A stretch of DNA of 64,000 nt from Oceanimonas aquatica. GTDB lineage: Bacteria; Pseudomonadota; Gammaproteobacteria; Enterobacterales; Aeromonadaceae. This document shows positions 16,765-24,382 of this stretch, in pieces; position 1 is the first letter of the stretch; each line of letters begins with the position of its first letter. The stretch spans positions 62,001-126,000 of the forward strand of contig NZ_JAVBHX010000008.1 in assembly GCF_030732065.1 (NCBI RefSeq). The letters run 5' to 3'. The notes below the pieces were generated by a model. The model searched no databases, was not told where the DNA came from, and was given only the letters and a program-made list of their open reading frames with translations. The position numbers and the translations under genes were made by a program.

Positions 16765-16840
16765 GCCCAGATAGCTCAGTCGGTAGAGCAGGGGATTGAA
16801 AATCCCCGTGTCGGTGGTTCGATTCCGCCTCTGGGCACCA
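16765..16840 (+). tRNA. tRNA-Phe (GAA), copy 1
   Basis: A 76-base tRNA with encoded CCA. The anticodon loop TTGAAAA gives anticodon GAA; the T-loop is GGTTCGATTCC and the acceptor stem GCCCAGA/TCTGGGC closes fully. It is very similar to E. coli tRNA-Phe. Confidence 0.98.
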
Positions 16841-16869
16841 TTTTTCGGTGCTTTCTCAAAAACACCAAC

Positions 16870-16945
16870 GCCCAGATAGCTCAGTCGGTAGAGCAGGGGA
16901 TTGAAAATCCCCGTGTCGGTGGTTCGATTCCGCCTCTGGGCACCA
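16870..16945 (+). tRNA. tRNA-Phe (GAA), copy 2
   Basis: Identical to copy 1. The spacer before it (16841-16869) is nearly the same as the next one, so the unit is a 105-bp tandem duplication. Confidence 0.98.
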
Positions 16946-16974
16946 CTTTTCGGTGCTTTTTCAAAAACACCAAC

Positions 16975-17050
16975 GCCCAGATAGCTCAGTCGGTAGAGCA
17001 GGGGATTGAAAATCCCCGTGTCGGTGGTTCGATTCCGCCTCTGGGCACCA
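16975..17050 (+). tRNA. tRNA-Phe (GAA), copy 3
   Basis: Identical to copies 1 and 2; last of the array, followed within 6 bp by an intrinsic terminator. All three are probably cut from one transcript. Confidence 0.98.
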
Positions 17051-21667: not shown

Positions 21668-21700
21668 CAAAAAAATGGCCGCTTGCGCGGCCATTTTTTA
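21668..21700. terminator. Bidirectional intrinsic terminator
   Basis: Long perfect stem AAAAATGGCCGC/GCGGCCATTTTT with loop TTGC (21671-21698), lying between the Hfq-like gene (+) and dapA (-), overlapping the dapA stop. Confidence 0.92.
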
Positions 21701-22570
21701 TATCAGTTCCAGCTCTTCCATTACCCGGCGAATGCGCGCCTTGGTGTCCTGCTGCAGCGGCACCACCGGAATGCGGCAGTGTTCGCTGGCCATGCCCAGC
21801 AACGACAGGGCGTACTTGGGGCAGGCCGGGTTGGGCTCGGCAAACAGTACCTGGTGCAGGGGCATCAGCTTGTCCTGCAGGGCACGGGCTTCTTCCCACT
21901 TGCCGGCCAGGGTCAGATCCTGCAGCTGGGCACACAGCCGCGGCGCCACGTTGGCGGTCACGGAAATACAGCCCTGACCGCCGCCCACGTTATAGGACAC
22001 GGCAGTGCCGTCTTCACCCGACAGCCAGGCAAAAGGCTTTTTAATCAGCTGACGCTCGGCCCAGGGACGATTCAGATCGCCGGTGGCATCCTTCACGCCC
22101 ACAATGCGCGGCAACTCGGCCATGCGCGCCAGGGTCTCGGGTTTGATGTCGACCACGGCACGGGGTGGAATGTTGTATACGATGATCGGCAGCTCGGTGG
22201 CGTCGTGCAGCATTTTAAAGTGAGCGTACAGACCGTCCTGGTTCGGGCGGTTGTAATAGCCGGCCACGTGCAGCGTGGCATTGGCTCCGGCTTCCTGAGC
22301 GCACACGCTGTATTCAATGGCTTCAACCGGATTATTGGAGCCGGCACCGGCAATCACCGGCACCCGGCCGGCGGCCTGCTCGGCCACGATTTCGATCACC
22401 CGGCAGTGTTCGTCGTGAGTCAGGGTCGGACTTTCCCCGGTGGTGCCCACCGGCACAAGGCCGTGCGTCCCTTCATCGATGTGCCAGTCAACCAGGCGGC
22501 GCAGGGACGCCTCGTCGAGCCGGTCACCGTCAAAGGGGGTAAGCAGGGCAACTAAAGAACCGCGAAACAT
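21698..22570 (-). CDS. dapA: 4-hydroxy-tetrahydrodipicolinate synthase
   Basis: Condenses pyruvate with aspartate semialdehyde, the first committed step to diaminopimelate and lysine. The 290 residues hold the Schiff-base Lys160 in VGVKDATGDL, Tyr132 in VYNIPPR and the GTTGES loop (42-47). Motifs such as SPTLTHDEH, GAGSNNPVEAIE, LSGEDGTA and GCISVTANVAPRLC resemble alphaproteobacterial DapA more than E. coli DapA (which has KEATGNL), and HVAGYYNRP replaces the usual VTPYYNRP. No bamC follows. AAGGAG precedes the ATG. A 200-base attenuator leader lies upstream. Confidence 0.95.
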   Translation of the reverse strand: MFRGSLVALLTPFDGDRLDEASLRRLVDWHIDEGTHGLVPVGTTGESPTLTHDEHCRVIEIVAEQAAGRVPVIAGAGSNNPVEAIEYSVCAQEAGANATLHVAGYYNRPNQDGLYAHFKMLHDATELPIIVYNIPPRAVVDIKPETLARMAELPRIVGVKDATGDLNRPWAERQLIKKPFAWLSGEDGTAVSYNVGGGQGCISVTANVAPRLCAQLQDLTLAGKWEEARALQDKLMPLHQVLFAEPNPACPKYALSLLGMASEHCRIPVVPLQQDTKARIRRVMEELELI

Positions 22571-22608
22571 GGAAACTCCTTCTCCTGATCAGAGGATTGA
22601 ATTTTGAA

Positions 22609-22646
22609 TTAAAAAACCCCGGGCGCGAAAGCGTAACCGGGGTTTT
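22609..22646 (-). terminator. Attenuator terminator in the dapA leader (3:4 hairpin)
   Basis: On the minus strand, arms AAAACCCCGG (22646-22637) and CCGGGGTTTT (22622-22613) pair fully, with a small inner CGC/GCG stem closed by a GAAA-complement loop, followed by T's to 22609. It lies 39 bp before the dapA ATG and after no other minus-strand gene, so it can only act on the dapA leader transcript. Confidence 0.88.
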
Positions 22647-22736
22647 GACAAGGGCTGGTCTGAACGAATCAGGCGTCGGTCACGCAAAAAAACAGGCCGC
22701 TTTACGTTTAAGCGGTTTGGTCGATTTGCGTTTGAC
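22631..22736 (-). promoter_or_regulatory. Competing leader RNA pairings (1:2 and antiterminator 2:3)
   Basis: Region 1 (22736-22725, GTCAAACGCAAA, Val-Lys-Arg-Lys codons) can pair with region 2 (22688-22679, TTTGCGTGAC) by ten pairs with a two-base bulge. Region 2 (22685-22677, GCGTGACCG, spanning the leader stop codon) can instead pair with region 3 (22639-22631, CGGTTACGC) by nine unbroken pairs including one G-U. Region 3 is also part of the terminator's first arm and loop. The three structures exclude one another in the classical attenuator order. Confidence 0.75.
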
Positions 22737-22748
22737 TGAAACTTGCAT
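22680..22748 (-). CDS. Lysine-rich leader peptide of dapA
   Basis: A 22-codon ORF beginning ATG CAA GTT TCA and ending TTT TTT GCG TGA. Residues run MQVSVKRKSTKPLKRK and then AACFFA. Lysine, always AAA, is at codons 6, 8, 11, 14 and 16, with Arg at 7 and 15, an extreme density in this GC-rich genome. AGG lies eight bases upstream of the ATG, about 24 bases from the predicted transcript start. The ORF contains attenuator region 1 and ends in region 2, so the ribosome's position would choose the downstream RNA fold. No homologue is known to me. Confidence 0.7.
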   Translation of the reverse strand: MQVSVKRKSTKPLKRKAACFFA

Positions 22749-22777
22749 GGATAACACCTGAAAAAACCTTGAAGAGC

Positions 22778-22806
22778 ATCTTTTGCCAACCACCGGCAAA
22801 TGTCAA
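22778..22806 (-). promoter_or_regulatory. dapA leader promoter
   Basis: Perfect -35 TTGACA (22806-22801), 17-base spacer, AAAGAT (22783-22778). The spacer contains the inverted repeat TTTGCC/GGCAAA (22782-22799), a possible operator. The predicted start near 22771 places a 24-base leader before the lysine-rich peptide. Its -35 overlaps the rsmC -35 on the other strand. Confidence 0.6.
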
Positions 22807-24002: not shown

Positions 24003-24088
24003 GCGAGGGTGGCGGAATTGGTAGACGCGCTAGCTTCAGGTGTTAGTGTCCTATGGACGTGGGGGTTCAAGTCCCCCCCTTCGCACCA
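24003..24088 (+). tRNA. tRNA-Leu (CAG), copy 1
   Basis: An 86-base class II tRNA with long variable arm and encoded CCA. The anticodon loop CTTCAGG gives CAG; the sequence is very close to the E. coli leuPQVT tRNA. Confidence 0.97.
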
Positions 24089-24139
24089 CACTGAGAAACA
24101 ATGACGGCCTCATTTAAAACAGCCGAACAATTTGAGCAT

Positions 24140-24225
24140 GCGAGGGTGGCGGAATTGGTAGACGCGCTAGCTTCAGGTGTTAGTGTCCTATGGACGTGGG
24201 GGTTCAAGTCCCCCCCTTCGCACCA
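24140..24225 (+). tRNA. tRNA-Leu (CAG), copy 2
   Basis: Identical to copy 1. The spacers before copies 2 and 3 share the motif AAAACAGCCGAACAAT. Confidence 0.97.
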
Positions 24226-24296
24226 AGCTTGACGGCTTGCGAACGGCTCAAATATCAACATGGTGGCCCATGTAAAACAGCCGAACAATCAGGTAT

Positions 24297-24382
24297 GCGA
24301 GGGTGGCGGAATTGGTAGACGCGCTAGCTTCAGGTGTTAGTGTCCTATGGACGTGGGGGTTCAAGTCCCCCCCTTCGCACCA
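24297..24382 (+). tRNA. tRNA-Leu (CAG), copy 3
   Basis: Identical to copies 1 and 2; end of the array. The following sequence to 24478 is AT-rich and shows no convincing hairpin terminator. Confidence 0.97.

Follow-up and report, generated by a model that had tools for sequence, protein, structure and literature searches.

The closest described counterparts of the locus examined here are the leader-peptide attenuators of enterobacteria, exemplified by his, trp, thr, leu, ilv, and phe. The dapA leader has the same layout, in which an open reading frame (ORF) carrying codons for the end product is followed by alternative 1:2, 2:3, and 3:4 hairpins and an intrinsic terminator before a biosynthetic gene. 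It differs in that the codons are for lysine, the gene is dapA, and no Rfam leader family matches. PMC1262725 names the histidine, threonine, and phenylalanine attenuators and places lysine genes under riboswitches, in other species.

The lysine riboswitch (L-box; RF00168) is, like the dapA leader, a means of RNA control of lysine genes. It occurs in 74 of 75 genomes of the Aeromonadaceae, and the Oceanimonas aquatica genome studied here has lysine riboswitches elsewhere than at dapA. One precedes lysC (NF006570, over the cut-off), as the first-pass annotation, made from the sequence alone, had supposed; a second precedes a gene for a Na+/H+-antiporter-like transporter, whose best models scored under their cut-offs. 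At dapA, however, neither RF00168, nor the T-box, nor any other Rfam family scored over its gathering threshold, and a leader with a Lys-codon ORF is found there instead.

Two other leaders invite comparison. As described in PMC6386406, ribosome pausing at consecutive Arg codons of Salmonella speF orf34 switches mRNA structure, acting via Rho, RNase G, and masking of a ribosome site, and the element senses arginine. Both orf34 and the dapA leader use codons for basic residues, but the latter has Lys codons together with an intrinsic terminator. According to PMC10117765, Sinorhizobium meliloti SEP5 is a possible leader peptide of the aspartate family pathway, in which six codons are for Thr and three for Lys; it differs in that the gene is named as aspartate dehydrogenase, conservation is confined to Sinorhizobium, and the codons are mainly Thr. 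The main text of PMC2965389 mentions neither dapA nor lysine. No leader-peptide attenuator for lysine was found in the literature searched, which did not cover Vitreschak 2004 or Lopatovskaya 2010. It is probable, albeit not proven, that the Lys specificity is new and the mechanism classical.

Organization of the dapA Leader

The window, a stretch of 64,000 nucleotides from contig NZ_JAVBHX010000008.1, carries dapA on the minus strand at 21698-22570, and all leader features described below lie on that strand. The gene codes for 4-hydroxy-tetrahydrodipicolinate synthase (290 amino acids), as evidenced by a TIGR00674 equivalog match of 304 bits against a cut-off of 206. The enzyme makes a lysine precursor and was the sole match in a protein search of the window's own genome. 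This dapA type is not common in the class, since only 3 of 276 genomes in an even sample, the window's own included, hold a copy at least 60% identical to it. Upstream of lysA and dapB in the same genome, no ORF of 12 to 36 codons with three Lys codons was detected within 330 nt, and the dapD model used gave no hit in that genome.

Reading base by base, a -35-like TTGACA (22801-22806) stands 17 nt from a weak -10-like AAAGAT (22778-22783) that agrees with the consensus at three of six positions. A TTGACWTTT is visible at a similar place in inspected loci from the Aeromonadaceae, the Moritella family, and f10, a second family of the same order. The first-pass annotation had described a TTGACA promoter with the leader ORF 24 bases beyond it. 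The TTGACA stands (22806-22801), but the promoter is weak by consensus, more so than had been stated, and a simple scan of the window listed neither it nor the dapA terminator. The ATG lies 52 nt after TTGACA, and the figure of 24 holds only when the count begins at an assumed start of transcription. Closer to the ORF, AGGTG (22755-22759) is the probable ribosome-binding site, at normal spacing from the ATG, and its last letters, GTG, are invariant or almost so in a sequence alignment (A2).

The leader ORF itself (22680-22748; MQVSVKRKSTKPLKRKAACFFA) has 22 codons, running from the ATG at 22748-22746 to the TGA at 22682-22680. Its five Lys codons, all AAA, are codons 6 (22733-22731), 8 (22727-22725), 11 (22718-22716), 14 (22709-22707), and 16 (22703-22701), confirming the earlier description letter for letter, and Arg codons 7 and 15 are interspersed among them.

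Three pairings, mutually exclusive in the window, can form from this leader. Lys codons 6 and 8 lie within region 1 (GTCAAACGCAAA; 22725-22736), and the minimum-energy fold pairs this region with region 2 (22736-22725 with 22688-22679), leaving a bulge of 2 nt and enclosing a nested CCGCUU/AAGCGG hairpin. This 1:2 fold reaches -19.9 kcal/mol (z of -2.36; 2 of 200 shuffles equal or better); scored as a duplex against shuffles, 1:2 is not significant in the window (p = 0.065). The nested hairpin (CCGCTT-loop-AAGCGG; 22697-22715), with Lys codon 14 in its loop, was returned by both the fold and the simple scan; together with the following CCTGTTTTTT, it is itself terminator-like in that scan.

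Region 2 (22677-22688) has a core, GCGTGACCG at 22685-22677, that spans the leader stop codon and pairs without a break over 9 bp with region 3 (CGGTTACGC; 22631-22639), which the terminator uses as its 5' arm and loop. As a hairpin, 2:3 reaches -16.2 kcal/mol (z of -2.50). Within a 59-nt stretch, 4 of 200 shuffles were as good, and within a longer 81-nt stretch (22700-22620), z was only -0.79, with 41 of 200 as good; as a duplex, 2:3 beat shuffles in two separate tests (p = 0.003 and 0.015). The terminator, formed by regions 3 and 4 and ending in a T-tract (22611-22646; 41 to 76 nt 5' of dapA), folds at -19.9 kcal/mol (z of -3.67; 1 of 200 shuffles as good). A fold of the whole leader contains 1:2 together with the terminator (z of -2.61). 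The pairings that the first-pass annotation had drawn by eye, namely, region 1 with region 2, region 2 unbroken with region 3 across the leader stop, and region 3 overlapping the first arm of a strong terminator just before dapA, were thus all recovered. An intrinsic terminator between leader and structural gene and an antiterminator that excludes it, both expected of a his/trp/thr-type attenuator, are present in the window, the former as judged from sequence only.

Elsewhere in the window are two clusters of three tRNA genes each (24003-24379 and 16765-17047), with equal scores within each cluster, and a match to the cspA thermoregulator RNA (RF01766; 18274-18679) over a small cold-shock-like ORF.

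Conservation of the Leader among Relatives

A family search with the DapA protein covered 75 genomes, and 74 of them, including Oceanisphaera (in the window's genus group), Aeromonas, and Tolumonas, have a close dapA; G038 has none and was not counted. All 74 loci have a terminator and, just ahead of it, an ORF containing three or more Lys codons (at least four in 65 and three in 9). The first-pass annotation had held that relatives keeping dapA without the Lys codons would refute its proposal, and no such locus exists among these 74.

The same design, in different letters, recurs in two other families of the window's order, for which 197 genomes drawn from a larger group were searched. Terminator and Lys ORF (at least three Lys codons) are found at 12 of 12 loci in f10, which includes Celerinatantimonas, and at 11 of 11 in the Moritella family; the f10 count includes L102 as positive, though its leader seems accidental. 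In another order, the family f154 (with Granulosicoccaceae sp. 1_MG-2023) has them at 14 of 18 loci, taken from 48 genomes. Ten more gammaproteobacterial loci with this dapA type fall outside the named families, and only four of these are positive by the same measure (L158, L164, L168, and L207, as opposed to L150, L154, L155, L161, L163, and L165). The dapA genes with such leaders are 54 to 97% identical to the window's, with one case at 49%.

Two sets of loci served as controls. Upstream regions of E. coli-type dapA genes (43 to 50% identical), taken from other genomes of the order and class, have a terminator and ORF in 2 of 43 cases. Many leader-bearing genomes carry a second, E. coli-type dapA too, and the upstream regions of that type were examined only in other genomes. 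In the named set L166 to L206, mostly alphaproteobacterial by title, 2 of 39 are positive, one being L168 (titled Acidiferrobacterales), itself a gammaproteobacterial case. Omitted from these counts are L176 and L203, which have short upstream sequence, from the latter set and L217 and L234 from the E. coli-type set. Because the family counts (74/74, 12/12, 11/11, and 14/18) stand against 2/43 in the control, chance is very unlikely. A Rhodobacter metagenome-assembled genome (L198) has a 40-codon ORF with seven Lys codons before a terminator-like site 5' of dapA, perhaps by chance.

In f3, with Ruminobacter among its named kin, the leader is absent at 12 of 12 loci. There, dapA often follows an apparent end of what we take to be lysS, on the strength of its C-terminal motif. 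Such an apparent lysS end lies just 5' of dapA in L100, L105, L108, L109, L111, L114, L122 to L124, L140, L141, and L143, which would place dapA next to the gene for lysyl-tRNA synthetase in these genomes.

Leader peptides vary widely in their letters. In the window's genus they read VKRKPxKPLKRKA, in many Aeromonas LKRKHKKSLxFGPADVRA, and in most Tolumonas RKPxKxxSKPG; LKKYKRPELKRG and others are found in f10, LKRKQDKQGKLKP in the Moritella family, and a KKPVAxKR type, among others, in f154. In two genus members (L019 and L020), the stop has moved, in one by a frame change and in the other by an early stop; their Lys codons still lie upstream, and region 2 is retained, with one letter changed in L020.

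The Marinomonas family departs from this pattern. All 30 of its loci (L256 to L285, from 48 genomes) have a Lys-rich leader with four to seven Lys codons, and 28 of the 30 leaders contain a GDKRK motif. No T-tract terminator was found before dapA at any of these 30 loci, and a consensus fold of 23 leaders gave no clear terminator or attenuator. Because this leader is Lys-rich but lacks a T-tract terminator, it must work differently, perhaps as an arrest peptide, through Rho, or at the level of translation.

Support for the Pairings in Relatives

Within the genus, the 9-pair core of 2:3 has no mismatch in 11 of 23 members and one in the other 12. Relatives that break 2:3 while keeping dapA, a second outcome that would have counted against the first-pass proposal, are therefore not seen within the genus, the core being retained in 23/23 with at most one mismatch. 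Across the same 23 genomes, 86.6% of the cells of a 14-pair 2:3 helix are paired, versus 23 to 47% when the helix is slid. In some members, the 5' side is lengthened to match the terminator loop, giving 14/14 pairs in L013 and L019. The covariation that the first-pass annotation had looked to did not materialize: among the 23 genus genomes, no both-sided change occurs in 2:3 and covariation measures do not exceed shuffles, so that the support within the genus is conservation only. For 1:2, ACGCAA:TTGCGT has all six pairs in 21 of 23 members and five in L003 and L006, and the nested hairpin has all of its six pairs in 13 of 23.

Over the wider set of leaders, the exclusive antiterminator is less uniformly detected. 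Against shuffles, the 2:3 duplex reaches p < 0.05 in 29 of 56 and falls short of significance in the other 27, among them four of nine Aeromonas representatives; for 1:2, just 12 of 56 are significant. In f154, none of 13 leaders has a significant 2:3; short complementary stretches are visible past the leader stop. Families do form 2:3 from unrelated letters, GGCTGGGT:ACCCGGCC in f10 versus GCGTGACC:GGTTACGC in f1, and this use of different letters for the same pairing may be read as further support for 2:3.

A partner-swap of regions 2 and 3 among 23 representatives was set aside as proof of pairing. Own partners ranked first both ways only in L090 (f10) and L207; the own region 2 was best for the own region 3 in L001, L009, and L013, the own region 3 was best for the own region 2 in L049 and L106, and the own partner was not first in the remaining representatives. 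The L048 representative was not located in the pairing analysis. Taken by family, attenuator logic is well supported in the Aeromonadaceae (except some Aeromonas) and f10 and fairly supported in the Moritella family (two of three representatives). It is not established for f154 and the Marinomonas family, where the matter is open.

Lysine Enrichment, Coding Evolution, and Geometry

Of the 167 upstream regions in all, 122 bear a terminator, and amino acid enrichment was measured in 63 representatives of these. For each amino acid, the highest count among short ORFs with their end close to the terminator was compared with dinucleotide shuffles. Lys ranks first of the 20 amino acids with a mean z of 1.87, followed by Val (0.71), Ala (0.51), Pro (0.49), and Arg (0.40). 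Over-representation of end-product codons, another mark of an attenuator, is thus found, with Lys in the leader and dapA downstream.

Selection on the leader is evident from 21 of 23 genus members, omitting L019 and L020 with their moved frame or stop. There, dN is 0.245 and dS 0.555, and for codons 5 to 16 the values are 0.131 and 0.553. The Lys residues at codons 6, 8, 11, 14, and 16 are retained in 21, 19, 19, 20, and 18 of these 21 members, and Arg 7 and Leu 13 are retained in all 21. Some of these bases are also under constraint from RNA structure, so this is not a pure coding test. Nevertheless, the leader meets the expectation that a his/trp/thr-type attenuator have a short ORF with a ribosome-binding site, under purifying selection.

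The attenuator model also expects region 2 to stay free when a ribosome stalls at the end-product codons and to be covered when a ribosome reaches the stop codon. This placement was examined in 56 leaders with at least three Lys codons (7 of the 63 representatives were left out, six having fewer than three and one lacking an ORF of allowed length) by measuring how far beyond the last Lys codon region 2 begins. A gap of at least 13 nt separates the two in 47 of 56 leaders, compared with 15.9 expected when Lys codons are permuted leader by leader, and most gaps are 14 to 24 nt. The window also has the expected placement, with region 2 starting 18 nt downstream of the first base of the final Lys codon; f154 is less clear-cut in its spacing (8 of 13, versus 4.5 expected). 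L015, whose automatically chosen region 2 differs from the aligned one, was scored as a failure. The resulting z of 9.9 is an upper bound, since region 2 was picked by best pairing and the representatives are related. The pooled statistics are generous for a like reason, as both region 2 and the leader were picked after the sequences had been viewed.

Proposed Mechanism and Alternatives

We consider it highly probable that the dapA leader is a ribosome-mediated transcription attenuator that reads lysyl-tRNA charging, although there are no expression, RNA, or translation data. RNA polymerase and a ribosome would travel the leader together. When Lys-tRNA is scarce, the ribosome would halt on one of the five AAA codons, disrupting the 1:2 hairpin, whereupon open region 2 could pair with region 3, no terminator would form, and dapA would be transcribed. 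When Lys-tRNA is ample, the ribosome would reach the stop codon inside region 2 and cover that region, allowing the 3:4 terminator to form; without translation, 1:2 would form and transcription would terminate. Translation, stalling, termination in the cell, and any response to lysine or lysyl-tRNA are inferences from the observed parts, their conservation, Lys enrichment, coding evolution, and codon-to-region-2 geometry. The first-pass suggestion of his/trp/thr-type logic that senses Lys gains support from this evidence, as Lys is enriched and its codons are placed to leave region 2 free.

The Lys residues might instead matter as part of a basic, KRK-type nascent peptide that arrests the ribosome, possibly with a bound lysine or polyamine in the exit tunnel, and not as a sensor of tRNA charging. 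Conservation of KRK and later K/R residues in the Aeromonadaceae, of Arg 7 and Leu 13 in 21/21 genus members, and of GDKRK in 28/30 Marinomonas-family leaders would suit such a peptide. We nevertheless think it quite unlikely because, between families, the peptides (VKRKPxKPLKRKA, LKKYKRPELKRG, LKRKQDKQGKLKP, and KKPVAxKR) have little but Lys in common, leader stops and C-termini are variable, and Arg averages only 1.0 to 2.7 per leader against 4.0 to 4.8 for Lys. A further possibility is a general sensor of translation rate, or of Lys and Arg jointly, in which any slowing of leader translation raises dapA. Arg codons are indeed interspersed with Lys codons in the window (codons 7 and 15) and in the majority of Aeromonadaceae leaders, but Arg is only fifth in the enrichment (z of 0.40 versus 1.87 for Lys), and leaders of the Moritella family combine a single Arg with three to six Lys, leaving this general sensor a slim chance, a shade slimmer than that of the arrest peptide.

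Alternatively, the terminator might be fixed and do no more than reduce dapA transcription, the small ORF before it being unrelated or there by chance. The hairpin seen is what a strong terminator alone would yield, and neither covariation within the genus nor expression data speak against it; yet the Lys-rich ORF at 74/74 family loci, codon selection, and the stalling geometry make it very improbable. Finally, the presence of lysine riboswitches elsewhere in the window's genome raises the idea that a lysine riboswitch or T-box drives the dapA switch, and the Rfam search leaves next to no room for it: no family reached its gathering score, the best being PyrR at 17.3 bits against a cut-off of 54.

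Implications for Lysine Sensing

Beyond the proposed attenuator at this one locus, we lean toward the view that Lys-codon leader attenuators are an unrecorded class found on one dapA type in several families and at least two gammaproteobacterial orders, in which the letters of peptide and RNA are rebuilt per family and only the Lys codons, the spacing, and the gene stay constant. Lysine has so far been treated, as in PMC1262725 for other species, as an amino acid with riboswitch-controlled genes in bacteria. If the attenuator reading is true, one genome reads free lysine by riboswitches, one of them at lysC, and charged Lys-tRNA by the dapA attenuator, and the question of why there are two lysine signals becomes directly testable.
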